From: a virus
DNA: 36,700 nt
Reading direction: 5' to 3' (one strand)
Virus record (IMG/VR): IMGVR_UViG_3300009181_000178
Coordinates: 1-36,700 of that record
This document shows, in pieces, positions 3,945-29,636 of the stretch (its first letter is position 1; each line of letters opens with the position of its first letter). The notes beneath the pieces are model-generated. The model was not told the origin of the DNA, made no database searches, and saw only the letters and a program-made list of their open reading frames with translations. The position numbers were made by a program, and so were the translations under genes.

Positions 3945-4019
3945 TGGTTGCAGAGGTTGGGTTTGAACCAACGACCTTCAGGTTATGAGCCTGCTGAGCT
4001 ACCACTGCTCCACTCTGCA
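3945..4019 (-). tRNA. tRNA-fMet-like (CAU), initiator type
   Basis: 75 nt with encoded CCA. Acceptor TGCAGAG/CTCTGCA, D arm GGAGCAGTGGTAGCTC, anticodon loop CTCATAA, T arm GTTGGTTCAAACCCAAC. The phrases TGGAGCAG, GGTAGCTC, CTCATAACC, GAAGGTCGT and GCAACCA are those of bacterial initiator tRNA-fMet (compared from memory), not elongator tRNA-Met. Differences: the usual C1-A72 mismatch is T1-A72, and one of the three G-C pairs in the anticodon stem is A-T. It is co-oriented with the gene at 4061 upstream. Confidence 0.85.
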
Positions 4020-10836: not shown

Positions 10837-11070
10837 TTATTTTGAGATCATTTTATTTCGAAAGTAATCTTTTACAGAAGACCCTACAGAAGACCCTACA
10901 GAATCCCATACAGAATACCTTACAGAAGACCCTACAGAATCCCATACAGAATACCTTACAGAATACCTTACAGAAACCCTTACAGAATACCTTACAGAAA
11001 CCCATACAGAATACCTTACAGAAGACCCTACAGAATCCCATACAGCTTTATAAACGGTAGAGTTGTTCAT
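10837..11070 (-). CDS. SV-repeat protein a
   Basis: 77 aa: leader MNNSTVYKAV, about fourteen consecutive tetrapeptides of the form xxSV (WDSV, GSSV, RYSV, VSV-type variants), then the family ending SVKDYFRNK. The coding DNA is a 12-bp tandem repeat (tacagaatccca type). The -10 hexamer TAAAAT (11077-11082) ends six bases before the ATG, so probably leaderless. First (3'-most) member of a twelve-gene array. The fold and function are unknown; a repetitive rod or helix with a Ser/Val face and variable Trp/Asp/Arg positions is an inference. Confidence 0.8.
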   Translation of the reverse strand: MNNSTVYKAVWDSVGSSVRYSVWVSVRYSVRVSVRYSVRYSVWDSVGSSVRYSVWDSVGSSVGSSVKDYFRNKMISK

Positions 11071-11076
11071 TGCTTT

Positions 11077-11095
11077 ATTTTATCGGAGTTCATTT
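11077..11095 (-). promoter_or_regulatory. GAACT promoter, leaderless type
   Basis: AAATGAACTCCGATAAAAT, six bases before the ATG at 11070; it also encodes the C-terminus (NELR) of SV-repeat protein b. Confidence 0.65.
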
Positions 11096-11271
11096 GAAAA
11101 GTAATCTTTTGCAGAAGACTCTACAGAACGCCATACAGAAACCACTACAGAAACCCTTACAGAATCCCATACAGAATACCTTACAGAAGACCCTACAGAA
11201 TCCCATACAGAATCCGCTACAGAACTCCTTACAGAATCCCTTACAGTCCTACGAATGATAGTATTATTCAT
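11080..11271 (-). CDS. SV-repeat protein b
   Basis: 63 aa: MNNTIIRRTV, ten or eleven xxSV units (RDSV, ADSV, WDSV, GSSV, RYSV), ending SSAKDYF. The last residues SNELR are read from the promoter of gene a. Its own -10 ends six bases before the ATG. Confidence 0.8.
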   Translation of the reverse strand: MNNTIIRRTVRDSVRSSVADSVWDSVGSSVRYSVWDSVRVSVVVSVWRSVESSAKDYFSNELR

Positions 11272-11275
11272 TGCT

Positions 11276-11485
11276 TTATTTTATCGGAGTTCGTGTTGTA
11301 AAGTAATCTCTTACGGAACTCCGTATAGAATCCTCTACAAAATCCGCTACAGAATCCCCTACAGAATCCCATACAGAATTCCACACAGGAACACTTACAG
11401 AAGCCCCTACAGAACCCTCTATAGAAGCCCATACAGAATCCCATACAGAATCCCATACAGAATCATTAATGTTAAAGTTGGTCAT
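11276..11485 (-). CDS. SV-repeat protein c
   Basis: 69 aa: leader MTNFNIND shared exactly with member d and closely with h, about twelve xxSV/xxSI units, ending SVRDYFTTR. Its ATG overlaps the TGA of member d (ATGA), and its own promoter lies within the last codons of d. Confidence 0.8.
   Translation of the reverse strand: MTNFNINDSVWDSVWDSVWASIEGSVGASVSVPVWNSVWDSVGDSVADFVEDSIRSSVRDYFTTRTPIK
11278..11295 (-). promoter_or_regulatory. GAACT promoter, leaderless type
   Basis: CACGAACTCCGATAAAAT, six bases before the ATG at 11271; overlaps the 3' end of member c (tail RTPIK). Confidence 0.65.
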
Positions 11486-11736
11486 TGCTTTATTTTAGTG
11501 GAGTTCGTTTTGTTGAAGTAATTTTTTGCAGAATCGCTTACAGAATCTACTACAGTAACACTTACAGAACGAGCTACAGAACTCCATGCAGAACCCCTTA
11601 CAGACCCCCTTACAGAATCCTCTACAGAACTCCATACAGAACCCGCTACAGAATCCCTTACAAAATCCTCTACAGAATCCCCTACAGAATCCGCTACAGC
11701 CCACCATACAGAATCATTAATGTTAAAGTTGGTCAT
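11482..11736 (-). CDS. SV-repeat protein d
   Basis: 84 aa: MTNFNIND leader, about fifteen xxSV units including GDSV, EDFV, RDSV, AGSV, RGSA, then SDSAKNYFNK. The tail TNSTKIKQ is encoded by the promoter of member c. Start overlaps the stop of member e. Confidence 0.8.
   Translation of the reverse strand: MTNFNINDSVWWAVADSVGDSVEDFVRDSVAGSVWSSVEDSVRGSVRGSAWSSVARSVSVTVVDSVSDSAKNYFNKTNSTKIKQ
11492..11510 (-). promoter_or_regulatory. GAACT promoter, leaderless type
   Basis: AAACGAACTCCACTAAAAT, six bases before the ATG at 11485, inside the 3' end of member d. Confidence 0.65.
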
Positions 11737-11975
11737 TGCTTTATTTTAGTGGAGTTCGTTTTGTTGAAGTAATCTTCTACAGAATCCCTTACGGAACTCC
11801 ATACAGAATCCCATACAGAATCCGATACAGAAATCCATACAGAATATCTTACAGAACTCCATACAGAACCCCATACAGCGTCCCATACAGAACCCGCTAC
11901 AGAATCCCTTACAAAATCCTCTATAGAATCCCTTGCAGAATAATATACAGCTTCGCGAATATTAGTGTTGGTCAT
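11733..11975 (-). CDS. SV-repeat protein e
   Basis: 80 aa from the ATG at 11975 (MTNTNIREAV). A longer open frame upstream belongs to the Cys-rich alternative frame of the DNA repeat and is rejected. About thirteen xxSV units (RDSI, EDFV, RDSV, WGSV, WSSV), ending SVEDYFNK; tail TNSTKIKQ read from the next promoter. No promoter of its own is visible; probably in an operon with f and g. Confidence 0.78.
   Translation of the reverse strand: MTNTNIREAVYYSARDSIEDFVRDSVAGSVWDAVWGSVWSSVRYSVWISVSDSVWDSVWSSVRDSVEDYFNKTNSTKIKQ
11743..11761 (-). promoter_or_regulatory. GAACT promoter, leaderless type
   Basis: AAACGAACTCCACTAAAAT, six bases before the ATG at 11736, within the 3' end of member e. Confidence 0.65.
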
Positions 11976-11992
11976 TGCTTTATTATTCATTT

Positions 11993-12226
11993 TTATTGGA
12001 AGTAATCTCTTACAGAATCTTCTACAGAACTTCTTATAGAATCCGTTACAGAACTTCTTACAGAAGACCCTACAGAATCCCATACAGAATTCGCTACAGA
12101 GTCCCATACAGAGTCCCATACAGAAGTTCCTACATAATACCATACGCAATCCTCTACAGAGTCCCATACAGAATCCCATATATAATCCCATACAGAAGTT
12201 TTTACAAAGTTGTCAATTTTATTCAT
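11993..12226 (-). CDS. SV-repeat protein f
   Basis: 77 aa from MNKIDNFVKTSV (ATG at 12226; the longer frame upstream is a shadow). Units WDYI, WDSV, EDCV, WYYV, GTSV, ANSV, RSSV and TDSI; ends SVRDYFQ. It starts a few bases after the stop of member g, with no Shine-Dalgarno. Confidence 0.78.
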   Translation of the reverse strand: MNKIDNFVKTSVWDYIWDSVWDSVEDCVWYYVGTSVWDSVWDSVANSVWDSVGSSVRSSVTDSIRSSVEDSVRDYFQ

Positions 12227-12228
12227 AA

Positions 12229-12438
12229 TTATTTTTGTTTGAAGTAATCTTTTATAGAAGCGAATACAAAAGGCGATATGGAGCCTATTGCAGAAGATCT
12301 TACAGAAGCCCTTACAGAAAATCTTATAGAATCCGCTACAAAAATCCATACAATACCTCTTACAGAATTATATATAGAAACTGTTACAGCACCGTTAATT
12401 TTATATAAACTAGCATTGCCTTCTAGTTTCATTCTCAT
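12229..12438 (-). CDS. SV-repeat protein g (diverged)
   Basis: 69 aa. Leader MRMKLEGNASLYKINGAVTVSI, irregular units (ADSI, RFSV, RASV, GSIS, FASI) and the conserved end SIKDYFKQK. The repeat periodicity is decayed while leader and tail persist. ATG overlaps the TGA of the 12435 gene (ATGA). Confidence 0.75.
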   Translation of the reverse strand: MRMKLEGNASLYKINGAVTVSIYNSVRGIVWIFVADSIRFSVRASVRSSAIGSISPFVFASIKDYFKQK

Positions 12439-12680
12439 GATTCATTCTCTTCTATTGCTGTTACAACTGGTTCGAAGAAGATATTATTATGCACATAATC
12501 GAACAGATAATCATAGTCTGGCGCTCGATCGTCTTCAGGTCCTATTTTTAGATTGAGAGCTTGCAAGAGATTATGAAACACCACGTCTTGTTTTTGTTGC
12601 AAAGCTTGAATAGTATCTCTTGCTTCATGAATTAGTTTATTATCTTCTGTGGTTATTTCTTTGCTTTTTAGTTTAATCAT
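12435..12680 (-). CDS. acidic helical protein, paralog of the 10550 gene
   Basis: 81 aa; see the gene at 10550 for the shared pattern. First gene of a probable operon 12680 to g to f to e, driven by the promoter at 12723-12741. The pairing with an SV-repeat gene through an ATGA overlap suggests the two products act together. Confidence 0.75.
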   Translation of the reverse strand: MIKLKSKEITTEDNKLIHEARDTIQALQQKQDVVFHNLLQALNLKIGPEDDRAPDYDYLFDYVHNNIFFEPVVTAIEENES

Positions 12681-12715
12681 ATTGTTATTATTTTGAGGTT
12701 ATTATTATTTTGAGT

Positions 12716-12940
12716 TCATTTTATTTTATCGGAGTTCGTTTGAAAGTAATCTCTTGCAGAATCCCATGCAGAAACCCTTACAGTATCCGCTACAGAATTC
12801 CCTACAGAAATCCCTACAGAATCCCATACAGAATATCTTACAGAATTCCATACAGAATCTCCTACAGAACCCCATACAGAATTCTCTACAGAATTCTCTA
12901 CAGAACTCCATACAGCTTTATGAATGTTAAAATTGGTCAT
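12716..12940 (-). CDS. SV-repeat protein h
   Basis: 74 aa from MTNFNIHKAV (ATG at 12940). About fourteen units (WSSV, ENSV, WGSV, GDSV, WNSV, RYSV, GISV, ADTV), ending SARDYF. The tail QTNSDKIK comes from the promoter of the 12435 gene. Lies in a run j-i-h behind the promoter at 13307. Confidence 0.8.
   Translation of the reverse strand: MTNFNIHKAVWSSVENSVENSVWGSVGDSVWNSVRYSVWDSVGISVGNSVADTVRVSAWDSARDYFQTNSDKIK
12723..12741 (-). promoter_or_regulatory. GAACT promoter
   Basis: AAACGAACTCCGATAAAAT inside the 3' end of member h; serves the 12680 gene and members g, f, e. Confidence 0.6.
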
Positions 12941-12942
12941 AA

Positions 12943-13080
12943 TCATTTTTGTTTGAAGTAATCTCTTACAGAACCCTTTGTAGAAATACCTACAGAAAGC
13001 CATACAGAAGTCCTTACAGAATTCAATACAGAATTCCATACAGATAATTCTGTAGCATCGTTAATTTTTTTAATATTCAT
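12943..13080 (-). CDS. SV-repeat protein i (short)
   Basis: 45 aa: MNIKKINDATELSV, then units WNSV, LNSV, RTSV, WLSV, GIST, KGSV and the end RDYFKQK. The shortest member, probably by repeat contraction. Its start overlaps the end of member j (NKNEY stop). Confidence 0.7.
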   Translation of the reverse strand: MNIKKINDATELSVWNSVLNSVRTSVWLSVGISTKGSVRDYFKQK

Positions 13081-13300
13081 TTTTGTTAAAATAATATTTT
13101 ACAGCATCTGCTACAGAAGACCTTACGTTCCACCATACTGCATAAGTATTTTCTTTTGAAGGCGGCCATTTAGAATATTTTACTGTACCAGTTATTCTAT
13201 GACATACTGTGTTACCTATAGAGGAATTTACTGTACAATGTACATTTTTCCATACAGCTTCATTTATCCATAGAGCTTCACGAACGGTGTAGTCACTCAT
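13070..13300 (-). CDS. SV-repeat protein j (diverged)
   Basis: 76 aa: MSDYTVREALWINEAVWKNV, a non-repetitive middle with several Cys/His, then WWNVRSSVADAVKYYFNK. Ancestral units are recognisable only at the ends. Own leaderless-type promoter at 13307-13325; heads the j-i-h run. Confidence 0.7.
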   Translation of the reverse strand: MSDYTVREALWINEAVWKNVHCTVNSSIGNTVCHRITGTVKYSKWPPSKENTYAVWWNVRSSVADAVKYYFNKNEY

Positions 13301-13304
13301 TGCT

Positions 13305-13496
13305 TTATTTTAGCGAAGTTCGTTTTGCGAAGTAATCTTCTACAGAACGCTCTACAGAATCACATACAGAATATCCTACAGATTCCTTTGCAGAATTCCA
13401 TACAGAATCCCATACAGAATCATCTACAGAATTCCATACAAAATCTTCTACAGAATCTTCTACAGAATATCTTATAGCATCGTTAATTTTATTCAT
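13305..13496 (-). CDS. SV-repeat protein k
   Basis: 63 aa: MNKINDAIRYSV, about twelve units (EDSV, EDFV, WNSV, DDSV, WDSV, GYSV, CDSV, ERSV), ending SVEDYFAKR; tail RTSLK read from the promoter of member j. Begins directly after the stop of member l. Confidence 0.8.
   Translation of the reverse strand: MNKINDAIRYSVEDSVEDFVWNSVDDSVWDSVWNSAKESVGYSVCDSVERSVEDYFAKRTSLK
13307..13325 (-). promoter_or_regulatory. GAACT promoter, leaderless type
   Basis: AAACGAACTTCGCTAAAAT, six bases before the ATG at 13300, in the 3' end of member k. Confidence 0.65.
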
Positions 13497-18664: not shown

Positions 18665-18683
18665 TATTATATCTTAGTTCGTT
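18665..18683 (-). promoter_or_regulatory. GAACT-TATAAT promoter
   Basis: AACGAACTAAGATATAAT upstream of the 27-aa gene, touching the stop of tilS. Confidence 0.6.
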
Positions 18684-19309
18684 TAAATTTTGTTGTAGAA
18701 TTTTTTGCGGACGATTTTTGTTAAACCAAATTGCGAAAATTGAGGTACAATATCATGTCGGATCCAATTTCGACGATATGATGTATCTACATTAGTTTCA
18801 TCCTCTACAATATATTCCTGAAGATTATTATTTTCTGCGTATTCAACCAAATCAGCTTTTGTGGTGCGAATAAATGGTCTAATGATTGCGTACAAATCTA
18901 GCTGAGTAATGACAGGAATAGGCATATACTCAGGACAACCTCTAAGCATATTCATAACATAACTCTCTACAGCATCATTAATATGATGACAGCAAATAAT
19001 ATTAGCGTTCAAAGTCTTAAAGAAGTTTAATCTATCAATTCGCAGACTATTTTCAATGCTACCTGTAATAGGCTTATCCTCTCTAATAGCTGATGAATAG
19101 TTAGCGTAGTTATGATCGCAAAATTGCTTAACTTTAGCCTCCATTAGATCATTTTGCGGTCGAAGATTATGATTATAATGACATACACTTACCTTATCAG
19201 GTCCGTACAGACGAATTAATAAATGAGCTGCTGCGATGCTATCAATGCCACCTGATACTGCTACCGTAAATTTATCTTTAGGTAAGATGTTTCTCGCAAC
19301 ATTAATCAT
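18683..19309 (-). CDS. tilS: TilS-like tRNA(Ile)-lysidine synthase
   Basis: 208 aa. PP-loop ATP-pyrophosphatase motif SGGIDS (19-24), CHYNHNLRPQND (TilS H-NH-LR motif), CCHHINDAVESYVMNMLRGC (H-ND-ES...RG) and RPFIRTTKADLVEYAENN...D.TN.D..YRRN.IR...VP, all characteristic of the TilS N-terminal catalytic domain. It lacks the C-terminal domains of the E. coli enzyme, like short TilS forms. The reaction joins lysine to C34 of tRNA-Ile2(CAU) using ATP, so it reads AUA. Fits an AT-rich phage carrying CAU tRNAs. TATAAT lies 5 bases before the ATG (leaderless). Confidence 0.88.
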   Translation of the reverse strand: MINVARNILPKDKFTVAVSGGIDSIAAAHLLIRLYGPDKVSVCHYNHNLRPQNDLMEAKVKQFCDHNYANYSSAIREDKPITGSIENSLRIDRLNFFKTLNANIICCHHINDAVESYVMNMLRGCPEYMPIPVITQLDLYAIIRPFIRTTKADLVEYAENNNLQEYIVEDETNVDTSYRRNWIRHDIVPQFSQFGLTKIVRKKFYNKI

Positions 19310-22953: not shown

Positions 22954-23245
22954 TGGTGCGGATGAGAGGACTCGAACCTCCAAATCAATTGATGACAGAT
23001 TTTCTTACCACTATAGCTTTCGCTACCATATCTGTTTGTGGTCTGGACTATACCTTAATCTTAGTATTACTACCTTAGATTCTCGCCGTCTAGTCTCTAC
23101 ACCTTCAAAGATATTTCTATCTTAGCTTGGCTCGGTATTGGCATTTTAAAGCGTTCACCGAATTTGACGAGTTCTACTCCTGTCGTTTCCAACAAGGCAC
23201 TCAATTTCTACAAGTCTGTTGTGTTTACCATTTCACCACATCCGC
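22954..23245 (-). tRNA. tRNA-Leu(UAA) interrupted by a group I intron
   Basis: Exon 1 is 23212-23245, exon 2 is 22954-23003 with encoded CCA. Spliced product 84 nt: acceptor GCGGATG/CATCCGC, D arm GTG-AAATGGTAAA-CAC, anticodon arm ACAGA-CTTAAAA-TCTGT (anticodon TAA), 13-nt variable region, T arm GGAGGTTCGAGTCCTCT. The gene only makes a normal tRNA when 23004-23211 is removed. The intron sits between U34 and A35, the site of the tRNA-Leu intron of cyanobacteria and plastids. Confidence 0.92.
23004..23211 (-). mobile_element. group I intron (IC3-like) in tRNA-Leu
   Basis: 208 nt, no ORF. P1: exon ACUU pairs with intron GAGU, U-G at the splice site. Core blocks in order: AATTGAGTGCCTTG (P), AATACCGAGCCAAGC (Q), GGTGTAGAGACTAGACGG (R), AAGGTATAGTCC (S), a P9 hairpin GTAGCGAAAGCTAT with GCGAAAGC tetraloop, and terminal G. 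These match, block by block, the cyanobacterial tRNA-Leu(UAA) intron as I recall it (GAGCCAAGC, GGTGCAGAGACT, GTAGCGAAAGCTG). Mobility would need a homing nuclease in trans; the HNH gene 9 bases upstream of the tRNA is the candidate. Confidence 0.9.
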
Positions 23246-23254
23246 ATTTAAATA

Positions 23255-23890
23255 TTATTTTTGCATATTATGTTTTGTTAAAAGTTTAGTTGCTCTTGAA
23301 TAATTGCCGCCCTTAGGAGAGAGATTGACATGTATTAGTGCTTGTCTTATATTAGACTCCTTTATTAGAGATGCAAGTAAGATTTCATCAGAAACTTTGG
23401 TTTTACCTGTATTTTTATTTTTACCACAATAAGTGTCGGTTAAAGAATGACAATTTGGACAAAGTAATCTTAGATTAGATAAAGTATTATTAAAATTATT
23501 TCCGTCAATATGATCCAATTCTAAATTAAGCTTTTGTCCTCTCCATTCACTAAGGTTACAAATTACACATTTATCGTCTATAAAATATTCTCTTAATAGT
23601 AATTTTTTAATTGCATGATTAGATAGAGTATTAGATTCACCGTTTATAAAGCGGCTAACTTGGTTTTGTTGTTTCGTTATAATAGATTTTTCTCTTGCTT
23701 CATCATTAAAACCTCCATTTCGTTGATTCATATTATAACAATGCTTTAATCCAGTTGAGTTTTTAGATCTATTCGCTGGACACGAGTTCCAAGATTTATT
23801 ACAGATATTTTTACCTTGCTTAGTTATAAACTTTGCTTCATTATTACAGCCATATTCACATTTCATATAAGTATTTAATATGGCATACAT
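23255..23890 (-). CDS. HNH homing-type endonuclease
   Basis: 211 aa (an internal Met at residue 9 is an alternative start). N-terminal zinc-ribbon-like CEYGCNNEAKF...CNKSWNSCP; HNH core CVICNLSEW...NLELDHIDGNNFNNTLSNLRLLCPNCHSL at about 108-150 with D126-H127, N and the CxxC pairs that hold zinc; C-terminal DNA-binding-like helices. Phage HNH proteins of this build are free-standing homing endonucleases. It ends 9 bases before the 5' end of tRNA-Leu, so it may cut intronless tRNA-Leu alleles. Confidence 0.88.
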   Translation of the reverse strand: MYAILNTYMKCEYGCNNEAKFITKQGKNICNKSWNSCPANRSKNSTGLKHCYNMNQRNGGFNDEAREKSIITKQQNQVSRFINGESNTLSNHAIKKLLLREYFIDDKCVICNLSEWRGQKLNLELDHIDGNNFNNTLSNLRLLCPNCHSLTDTYCGKNKNTGKTKVSDEILLASLIKESNIRQALIHVNLSPKGGNYSRATKLLTKHNMQK

Positions 23891-27192: not shown

Positions 27193-28308
27193 TTAGATAG
27201 TTTTCTTCCAGACGCTACTCTCACCGCGCCCAATTTTAACAAGTTTATTTGCATCAACAAGCTCCTTGAGAGTAAGGTAGGCTTGAGAAGGAGTAAGCTT
27301 AAATTTTTCAATAATCAGATTTTTAGTAATAAGAGGAGGATCAAGCTCAAGAATTTCTTTCTCAATATCTTGCTTACGAGTCTTTTTAGATTTACCCATA
27401 TCACCTTCACGTTTACCGGTGAATTGAAATCCGTTATAACCAAGAGTTGCAGAATAATCGTTCGTAGGACCGAACCGATTCTTATAGACTGAGAAGATTC
27501 GACCACTACTATCTCCCTCTGTATCAGGCATAATTTGAATATTGACATCGACTGAGTGAGGTACCAGCGAGGATCCTTTCAGCTTACCGTCTTTAGTAAG
27601 GTGCATGATAAAGAATACAGCACACTCGTTCTCTTTTGCAGCTTTAATCAAAGCGCTTACAGCATAACGCTCAAGCTCAGCTTGATTGAGCTTATTCTTA
27701 GTAGTCAATGCTTGAAAGGAATCGATGACCAATACATCAAAAATTTTAGTCGCCTCAACCAACTCATCAATATCTTGAATATTAGCGATTTGAATATTTT
27801 TCACGTTCAAACGGTTGCATGTAAAGGCGATCTGATATTGATTCTCTTCGCCAGAAGCATATCCAGTATTGTAACCGTTATTTGAGAGAGCTTCCATCAA
27901 CTGCAAGAGGTAGGAAGTGTTATGATGAATAACACCATTCGGTGTTATATAGACATGAGGTGCATCAATTGATATATCATAAACTTCCGCATTTGTATTA
28001 ACAGTTTGAATTGAAGAAATTTTAGATGAACCATAAATCGTATCAACTGTTTGACAGTCTTTTACAAATTTACACTCACCTTCTTCAAAGACTAAATGCC
28101 GAGATGAAACATTAAATTCATCTCCGTTTTCAAGCTTAACATTTACAATCTCATGTTCCGTTTTTTTAATATATCCTCTAATAGGTACTACTTCCTTTGT
28201 TGGTGTTAAGACATAAAGTTGAGTATCTGTAAACTCGATATTATTAATATCATCACCAATGTTAAGGAATTCGAATAGATCTTTAAATGTTACCGTTAAT
28301 GATTTCAT
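27193..28308 (-). CDS. C-intein + C-terminal part of RadA-like ATPase
   Basis: 371 aa. Residues 1-130 are the C-terminal intein fragment: block B-like NVSSRHLVF (66-74) and ending VYDISIDAPHVY...GVIHHN, with the penultimate His and terminal Asn of block G. Splicing joins Thr131 onward (TSYLLQLMEAL) to the N-part. The extein has ASGEE (151-155), Walker B DVLVIDS (191-197), HLTKDGKLKGSSLVPHSVD (236-254) and the RadA signature KNRFG (276-280), then a C-terminal winged-helix-like tail. Spliced RadA would be 298 aa. Own double promoter at 28338, inside the endonuclease gene. Confidence 0.92.
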   Translation of the reverse strand: MKSLTVTFKDLFEFLNIGDDINNIEFTDTQLYVLTPTKEVVPIRGYIKKTEHEIVNVKLENGDEFNVSSRHLVFEEGECKFVKDCQTVDTIYGSSKISSIQTVNTNAEVYDISIDAPHVYITPNGVIHHNTSYLLQLMEALSNNGYNTGYASGEENQYQIAFTCNRLNVKNIQIANIQDIDELVEATKIFDVLVIDSFQALTTKNKLNQAELERYAVSALIKAAKENECAVFFIMHLTKDGKLKGSSLVPHSVDVNIQIMPDTEGDSSGRIFSVYKNRFGPTNDYSATLGYNGFQFTGKREGDMGKSKKTRKQDIEKEILELDPPLITKNLIIEKFKLTPSQAYLTLKELVDANKLVKIGRGESSVWKKTI

Positions 28309-29302
28309 ATAGTTTATTTTGTATTGCTTTATTATTATATCGGAGTTCGTTATATCGGAGTTCGTTATAGTTTTTTTCCCAAAAAGTTACAACTTTGTAA
28401 CCTAATAATTCAGCTATAATTTTTTTTTCTTTATCATGTTTCCATATTTCTTTTGCTGTTTTTTTTGTTATAGGGTTAATCCAATTTTCAGAGTATAATT
28501 CTGGATTAGCGTGCCATATATCACCATTAAATTCTAATATAATTTTAGCTGCATGATTAATAAAATCATATATAAAAAATTTGTTACCTGTATTTATATA
28601 CCACTGAGATTGCCAATTATCTGACAGTAAATTCCGTATATTTTTTTCTGGTTTAGAAATTGAAGCATTTAATCGAGATGCAATAATATCGCAAGCTTTT
28701 GTATATCCATACTGTTCTATTAACTGATGTCTGTTTCTTCCCTTACGAGGATTAATAGAAGGGTCACATTCTATAGCTAGCTGCATAGATGTTTGCCATT
28801 GATTATTTCTCTTATTTATTATAGCATCAACTTCACTATATGAGAAGCCTTTATTAAGGTAAAAATTGCGACCTCTAGCCTGTTGTTTTGCTGTATATAA
28901 GTTATTATCTTGTTTTGTTTTTACTGATTTTTTTACACGCTGTAACTTATTTGTATTTGAACGAGTAGTTTGGTGTTCTTTTATTATAAAATCTGATTCT
29001 TGCTTAGTATAGCCACGTAAAATATAATAATTTGACTGTAGGATTCCTGTTGCCTTCAGGTTATTGACAGTTTTCCATTTATTAAATTGAATCTCTAAAT
29101 CCCATGCAGACATAGACTCTTTTGTTAAACAGCTATCGAAAAAACTCTTAACATGATTATAGTTTTTAAATGGTAAAAAGTTTAACCCCCTTTTTAAAGA
29201 TATATCAATTAAAAAATCTTCTATATCTTTATAAGATATGCAATGTTTTATGACTGTTACATAGGCCTTTTTATTTTTTCGTATACGTTGAGTTATATTC
29301 AT
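28283..29302 (-). CDS. Vsr-like (EDxHD) homing endonuclease
   Basis: 339 aa. The C-terminal third is a Vsr/EDxHD fold: SKPEKNIRNLL (E219), FIYDFINH (D246), IILEFNGDIWHANP (E257, H264) and KEIWKHDKEKKIIAELLGYKVVTFWE. The N-terminal part has repeated KGFSYSEVDAIINKR / RGYTKQESDFIIKEH DNA-binding-type motifs. This is the nuclease family found in fractured genes. A CATAAATA late-type promoter lies 5 bases before the ATG. The C-terminal NELRYNELRY is the double promoter of the RadA C-part. Overlaps that gene by 26 bases. Confidence 0.9.
   Translation of the reverse strand: MNITQRIRKNKKAYVTVIKHCISYKDIEDFLIDISLKRGLNFLPFKNYNHVKSFFDSCLTKESMSAWDLEIQFNKWKTVNNLKATGILQSNYYILRGYTKQESDFIIKEHQTTRSNTNKLQRVKKSVKTKQDNNLYTAKQQARGRNFYLNKGFSYSEVDAIINKRNNQWQTSMQLAIECDPSINPRKGRNRHQLIEQYGYTKACDIIASRLNASISKPEKNIRNLLSDNWQSQWYINTGNKFFIYDFINHAAKIILEFNGDIWHANPELYSENWINPITKKTAKEIWKHDKEKKIIAELLGYKVVTFWEKNYNELRYNELRYNNKAIQNKLYEIINGNI
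28338..28366 (-). promoter_or_regulatory. double GAACT-TATAAT promoter
   Basis: Two head-to-tail copies (AACGAACTCCGATATAACGA, then GAACTCCGATATAAT) within the endonuclease coding end. They give the RadA C-part its own transcript, independent of the N-part. Confidence 0.65.
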
Positions 29303-29307
29303 ATAAC

Positions 29308-29315
29308 TATTTATG
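29308..29315 (-). promoter_or_regulatory. late-type promoter (CATAAATA)
   Basis: Five bases before the start of the Vsr-like endonuclease gene; one mismatch to TATAAATA. Confidence 0.45.
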
Positions 29316-29325
29316 CCTGCGTGAG

Positions 29326-29589
29326 CTATTTGCCCGCTTTAGCGGCCAACCACGTTTGGAATTTATTAATAATATCGTCCGATCCAAAAATTTCAATAAT
29401 CTCATTAGGACCGTGACACTTACCGCATCCAGCTTGAGCCGTAAGGGTGGTAGCACTTCCAGGAAGAATACCTTCGCCGTACATTTCATCCATCTCTGCG
29501 ATTCCCGTCTTGATACGATTGTAAAAGATACTAGGAATAGTAACATCAGAAACTTTTGTAAAGTTAGAAGAATGATTTAAGAGATTCAT
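29326..29589 (-). CDS. N-terminal part of RadA-like ATPase + N-intein
   Basis: 87 aa. Extein residues 1-57: RIKTGIAEMDEMYGEGILPG then LTAQAGCGK, the RadA approach to Walker A, ending at its Lys. Residue 58 is Cys1 of a 30-aa N-intein (CHGPNEIIEIFGSDDIINKF and ten more), then stop. The Walker A loop GCGK-TS is complete only after trans-splicing with the product of 27193. Lacks the zinc finger of bacterial RadA. Promoter at 29618. Confidence 0.9.
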   Translation of the reverse strand: MNLLNHSSNFTKVSDVTIPSIFYNRIKTGIAEMDEMYGEGILPGSATTLTAQAGCGKCHGPNEIIEIFGSDDIINKFQTWLAAKAGK

Positions 29590-29617: not shown

Positions 29618-29636
29618 AATTATATCGGAGTTCATT
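29618..29636 (-). promoter_or_regulatory. GAACT-TATAAT promoter
   Basis: AATGAACTCCGATATAAT upstream of the RadA N-part; overlaps the stop region of the phosphoesterase gene. Confidence 0.65.

Follow-up and report, generated by a model that had tools for sequence, protein, structure and literature searches.

A RadA-like ATPase gene fractured in its Walker A loop by a split intein and a Vsr-like nuclease gene: a probable mobile element of phages

How could a working ATPase be made from a gene that is broken inside its own ATP-binding loop? This question is raised by the viral IMG/VR record IMGVR_UViG_3300009181_000178, analyzed here as a single window of 36,700 bp that is the complete record, in which a RadA-like ATPase is encoded by two separate open reading frames (ORFs) with a nuclease gene lying between them. 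The sequence comparisons described below make it very probable that the locus carries a mobile fractured-gene element in the Walker A loop of radA, in which trans-splicing of a split intein restores RadA and the nuclease promotes homing.

The divided RadA-like gene

Three minus-strand ORFs were confirmed at this locus, in agreement with the original prediction that the ATPase is made as two separate proteins. The first RadA half (29589..29326) is an ORF of 87 amino acids (aa) composed of the N-extein, RadA residues 1-57 with the Walker A end AGCGK (29419..29589), followed by a 30-aa N-terminal intein fragment (IntN) CHGPNEIIEIFGSDDIINKFQTWLAAKAGK that begins with Cys1 and runs to the stop codon (29326..29418). 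The putative homing endonuclease, a 339-aa ORF of the EDxHD/Vsr type (28283..29302), starts 23 nucleotides (nt) beyond the end of the first half, and its 3' end shares 26 nt with the start of the next ORF. This second RadA half (28308..27193, 371 aa) joins a 130-aa C-terminal intein fragment (IntC, 27919..28308) to 241 aa of RadA, which is the C-extein of residues 58-298 (27193..27918) that opens with Thr+1 in the sequence TSYLL and contains the KNRFG motif. With a slash marking each junction, the first RadA half reads AQAGCGK/CHGPNEIIEIFGSDDIINKFQTWLAAKAGK and the second, after its 130 intein residues, reads VIHHN/TSYLL, just as had been predicted. The insert, exactly 1,500 bp long, separates the Lys codon of Walker A from its Thr codon.

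The TIGR00416 (RadA/Sms) profile matches the first protein over profile positions 73-108 and the second over 109-266. These positions adjoin across the split, and therefore nothing is missing or doubled there. An empty allele of the same gene is present in IMGVR_UViG_3300046000_012271 (L003), which codes for a single uninterrupted RadA that reads AGCGKTSYLL through the insertion point and whose neighbors, a phosphoesterase gene upstream and a lipoprotein-like gene downstream, match those of the window. Its length of 298 aa is exactly that predicted for the ligated product. This intact form contains KNRFG and matches the solved RadA structure 5lkm at 5.5e-22 (phmmer), so that the RadA-type host first proposed from KNRFG is borne out by the profile match, by the empty allele and by the similarity to 5lkm. 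A wider scan returned 135 phage RadA relatives, of which 80 are listed; one of these 80 (L063) is the second carrier of the insert described below, and the other 79 are all one-piece proteins with Walker A at the insertion point, with KNRFG or KNRYG present in 78 of the 79. Thus one conserved gene that is intact in its relatives is here divided between two ORFs, and the uninterrupted form is most likely the ancestral state since every one of the 79 other listed relatives is intact.

The gene product has, like RadA/Sms, the core of a RecA-like ATPase, including Walker A and KNRFG. It is not a full-length bacterial RadA, as the score is 105 bits against a TIGR00416 cut-off of 403, with coverage of profile positions 73-267 only, and the intact L003 form has neither the zinc finger nor the (Lon-like) C-terminal domain of the full bacterial protein. 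The safe name is therefore RadA-like ATPase core.

The split intein and the nuclease between its halves

All catalytic residues of a class 1 intein are present, namely C1 in IntN, then the block B His H71 (within SSRH), the F-block pair D111 (within VYD) and H118, and H129 and N130 (within HHN) in IntC, and T+1 of the C-extein. In alignments of the relatives described below, G-K-C is invariant in 24 of 24 N fragments, and the block B His, VYD, PH and HN/T are invariant in 26 of 26 C fragments. A profile search of both intein pieces, suggested as a check, was positive for the 130-aa piece, which matches the Pfam model Intein_splicing at 3.4e-7 (slightly below the curated cut-off) and exceeds the cut-off of the NCBIfam intein C-terminal model, whereas the 30-aa piece is too short to match. 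IntC also matches solved inteins in a PDB sequence comparison. The AF2 model of an unsplit natural relative (L033; pLDDT 89.8, pTM 0.85) has the Hint fold, with the listed PDB matches being inteins or intein-like domains and VidaL ranking third. Complementary intein halves are thus fused to both parts of the host protein, and the predicted atypical 30/130 split intein is supported by the profile matches, by the empty allele and by the fold match of the cis relative. A group I intron in place of an intein was considered and rejected, since an Rfam search of the insert is negative and the gap from the N half to the nuclease gene is just 23 nt.

Under the preferred reading the two separately translated proteins would associate and undergo class 1 trans-splicing, in which Cys1 would act first, then Thr+1, and then cyclization of Asn130, excising the intein and yielding a RadA of 298 aa whose P-loop is complete. 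Alternatively, there may be no splicing at all, with the halves forming a non-covalent two-chain RadA and the intein pieces being relics. Two-chain split phage genes with free-standing nucleases do exist, as in Aeh1 nrdA and Aeromonas phage 25 gene 43 (PMC2988022). However, the break here falls inside the Walker A loop with complete intein sequence at both junctions, 26 relatives spread over four host genes have kept the catalytic residues, which relics would lose, and cis versions of the intein retain the same residues. We regard this alternative as highly improbable.

The nuclease is a free-standing ORF between the intein halves, the arrangement of a fractured gene. Searches with Pfam and NCBIfam profiles returned no family name for it, and it was identified by fold comparison only, in which the first three PDB ranks for its model are Vsr, Vsr (1cw0/1vsr) and I-Bth0305I (Foldseek). 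Its profile also aligns with Vsr over DF...GxFWH...D..K, although weakly (E 0.058). Residues D246, E257, H264 and D290 are invariant in 8 alignment rows and E219 was assigned by eye; together these five fit the EDxHD pattern. The predicted Vsr-like nuclease of 339 aa is therefore upheld by the fold ranking and by the presence of the residue pattern. The N-terminal two thirds of the protein are helical with repeated Y(W/Y)I..GY(T/S)..E modules, which appear to resemble nuclease-associated DNA-binding repeats.

Movement and expression of the element

A second carrier, IMGVR_UViG_3300027969_004705 (L002/L004), carries this 1,500-bp insert too, and at the identical base. The two inserts differ at only 8 of 1500 positions (0.5%, or 99.5% identity), whereas the C-exteins differ at 84 of 726 bases (11.6%; Fisher p about 2e-33 for insert versus C-extein), the N-exteins by 2.9%, the upstream genes by 20.1% and the downstream genes by 4.9%. 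An insert that is 99.5% identical between flanking genes that differ by up to 20% indicates that the element moved recently. Recent homing with co-conversion would account for the sharp identity peak at the insert and for the partial carry-over on its N side. In such homing the nuclease would cut an intact radA near the P-loop during a mixed infection, and repair off the filled allele would copy the element. Once inserted it would be kept in place because imprecise loss from the ATP-binding loop would disable the protein. The one empty and two filled radA alleles, with a near-identical element, provide clean material for tests of fractured-gene homing.

The same comparison bears on the view that the insertion destroyed a radA that is dispensable to the phage, leaving a pseudogene. 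The phage may not need its RadA-like ATPase, which would favor this view. Nevertheless, two phages have full open frames for each RadA half and for the nuclease, and the 371-aa proteins of the two carriers are 96% identical despite the 84 base differences in their C-exteins, which indicates purifying selection. We consider a pseudogene highly improbable.

A third possibility contests only the homing step and is compatible with splicing. It holds that the intein works and the nuclease is inactive, with the element passing among related phages by ordinary homologous recombination only. The downstream genes of the two carriers are also alike, and so a longer tract was possibly exchanged. On the other hand, identity peaks sharply at the insert and drops immediately in the C-extein, and the window nuclease has an intact frame with all catalytic residues while other family members have decayed nucleases. 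Spread by recombination only is thus unlikely, though less so than the relic or pseudogene explanations.

Several observations do weigh against an element that both splices and homes. The high identity of the insert would also be expected if phages had recombined in the ordinary way, with no cleavage. The nuclease model has modest overall confidence (pTM 0.42), with most of the nuclease domain above 80, and none of its Foldseek matches falls under E 0.001, the best being 1.9e-3 at a probability of 1.00. As for the intein, IntN was assigned by alignment with relatives and by position, and the fold was modeled on the natural cis relative L033 and not on the IntN/IntC pair of the window.

Expression of the two halves was addressed through a motif search. 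The motif AACGAACTCCGATATAAT occurs in 29 copies on the coding (minus) strand from 3935 to 35196, mostly in intergenic sites and usually 8-67 nt 5' of a gene start, and at two mismatches there are 30 matches on both strands versus 0.45 expected by chance. It has the appearance of a phage-specific promoter-like motif with no evident -35 box. One copy lies 5' of the first RadA half (29620..29633, minus strand), and the empty allele has it in the same position (L003:5786). Two tandem copies, GAACTCCGATATAA (28335..28363, minus strand), are situated in frame in the 3' end of the nuclease gene, 27 and 42 nt 5' of the IntC start, where they read as the peptide NELRYNELRYN that is not in the nuclease of relative L007. 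Thus a transcription start of its own is probable for the second half, drawn from two phage-type repeats within nuclease coding sequence. Translational coupling of the second half is also possible because the nuclease gene overlaps its start. The proposal of separate promoters for each half consequently holds at the level of promoter-like repeats 5' of each half and does not extend to demonstrated promoters. In the contig of the second carrier the exact motif is present inside the insert only, which suggests that the element came from a window-like phage. Two other promoter types were rejected: the T4-type late motif TATAAATA as a promoter for the nuclease is not enriched (7 found versus 7.5 expected), and sigma-70 promoters around the operon show no excess (15 versus 13.5 by chance).

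Relatives in other phage ATPase genes and known systems

Two alignment-driven scans of viral contigs yielded about 35 distinct relatives of the intein, and in most of those read in detail Walker A is interrupted after GK. The hosts are RadA (L007 and L008, with IntC 53-58% identical to that of the window), clamp loaders (L010, L011, L013-L017, L049, L050, L053, L058 and L061), UvsX (L018-L030, L033 and L034) and a DnaB-type helicase (L009), with the N half lying beyond the contig end in L012, L047 and L056. Slightly shifted insertion points are seen in L031 (HFK/C) and in the gp41 gene of vB_VmeM-32, a Vibrio phage that has been isolated. The window element is therefore no one-off but a member of a phage family found in four kinds of ATPase at one and the same Walker A point. 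Bacterial and archaeal genomes were scanned as well and gave no relative, so that within the reach of that scan the family looks confined to viruses. Several of its genes are apparently fractured twice, as a second IntN breaks the C-extein in the Walker B region (VLDE/CL...) in the clamp loaders L013, L014, L047 and L058, and further down in the UvsX genes L026, L028, L031 and L056.

In a tree of IntC the RadA inteins form one clade (100/99), and the tree needs four host-label changes where the least possible is three. These values speak against frequent jumping between host genes and indicate that spread was mostly allelic with rare switches. An intact nuclease is present in the window and in L002, L007, L008, L016, L017 and L031. 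In other relatives it has decayed. For example, the 118-bp gap of L014 keeps an open nuclease tail, LEKLGYNVLSLWG...INLCKDFINEN, and in L050, its nearest neighbor in the tree, the gap is gone and the intein is a single read-through cis ORF; further single-ORF versions are L033/L034, L018 and L061. L050 and L033 are nested among split forms, which makes re-fusion following loss of the nuclease the simplest interpretation. By eye, HNH-like nuclease remnants are recognizable in the gaps of L053 (4874-4994) and L058 (4622-4826, with HHIDYDKRNDSRENLIFSCHSYHSKTA), which indicates that more than one nuclease family used this split point; the UvsX group, also judged by eye, has a nuclease of a different type. 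It is quite possible, although we propose it tentatively, that these are phage-borne parasites specialized in Walker A, fractured elements at GK/T of at least four kinds of ATPase that use several nuclease types and re-fuse into a cis mini-intein after nuclease loss. If true, split inteins would thereby have a natural path to cis inteins, the reverse of the direction usually assumed, and a nuclease that tolerates P-loop-coding DNA would account for the rare jumps among non-allelic ATPase genes. The existence of split, nuclease-free split and re-fused versions of one intein makes the origin and reversal of intein splitting directly testable.

The general arrangement was, as the original prediction noted, already known, since fractured genes in which a split intein accompanies a Vsr-like (EDxHD) nuclease date from Dassa et al. 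2009 (cited by PMC12350094 and PMC10448857). They share with the window a host gene in two ORFs, a split intein and a free-standing Vsr-like nuclease between the halves, and they differ from it in that the window host is RadA/Sms-like and has promoter-like repeats for its second half. The 2009 cases are reportedly split at the usual place. Relative to a typical split (PMC11923092), the window has an IntN of 30 aa versus about 100 aa, with the nuclease at a different intein point. Atypically split inteins with a short IntN of about 15-25 aa have been published, namely VidaL (6vgv), AceL-TerL and PolB16 OarG (PMC10189870), and the window intein shares with them a short N fragment, a long C fragment and the Hint fold, although its 30 aa (12-33 aa among the relatives) lie slightly outside the published range. 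VidaL, which matches the modeled cis relative with a TM-score of 0.73-0.78, is only weakly similar in sequence (profile E 0.027), and the window has a 30-aa IntN with Cys1 and Thr+1. IntN peptides of this size are accessible by peptide synthesis and could serve in protein labeling.

A parallel in an isolated phage is gene 41 of vB_VmeM-32 (KU160494), which likewise has a short IntN (27 aa) at the P-loop, HHN/T, and an EDxHD-like nuclease (378 aa) overlapping the IntC start. It differs in its DnaB-type helicase host and in an insertion a few residues earlier (AGVN/TGKS), and the record carries no annotation of an intein at this place. The UvsX gene of the same phage is also fractured (L005 1-1700); its split is of a more usual kind, and the halves flank a SegG-like nuclease. 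The best single-sequence PDB match of IntC is the Pho RadA intein (4e2t/4e2u; 2.4e-4), which is in contrast cis-splicing and resides in archaeal RadA, a RecA/Rad51-type recombinase and not RadA/Sms, so that the shared name is coincidental. I-Bth0305I and Vsr share the fold and motif order of the nuclease domain but act in the context of a group I intron or of mismatch repair, whereas the window nuclease is paired with a split intein. No report of a fractured RadA/Sms gene was found in the literature, which is weak evidence given that subscription papers lay largely outside the search. New aspects are the RadA-type host, a split with a short N part at the site of the nuclease, the set of empty and filled alleles and the re-fusion series.

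Other features of the window lie apart from the radA locus. Its only intron is a group I intron core (RF00028, 58 bits; 23024-23221) beside an HNH endonuclease gene, in the minus-strand region 23024-23890. A TilS-type tRNA-Ile lysidine synthetase domain is encoded at 18683-19309 (minus strand) and there are three CAT-anticodon tRNA genes, at 3945, 16151 and 20306, one of which may be a tRNA-Ile that is modified by the phage itself. Finally, 10837-13496 (minus strand) holds a run of small genes built of VWDSV/SSVRYSV-type repeats.
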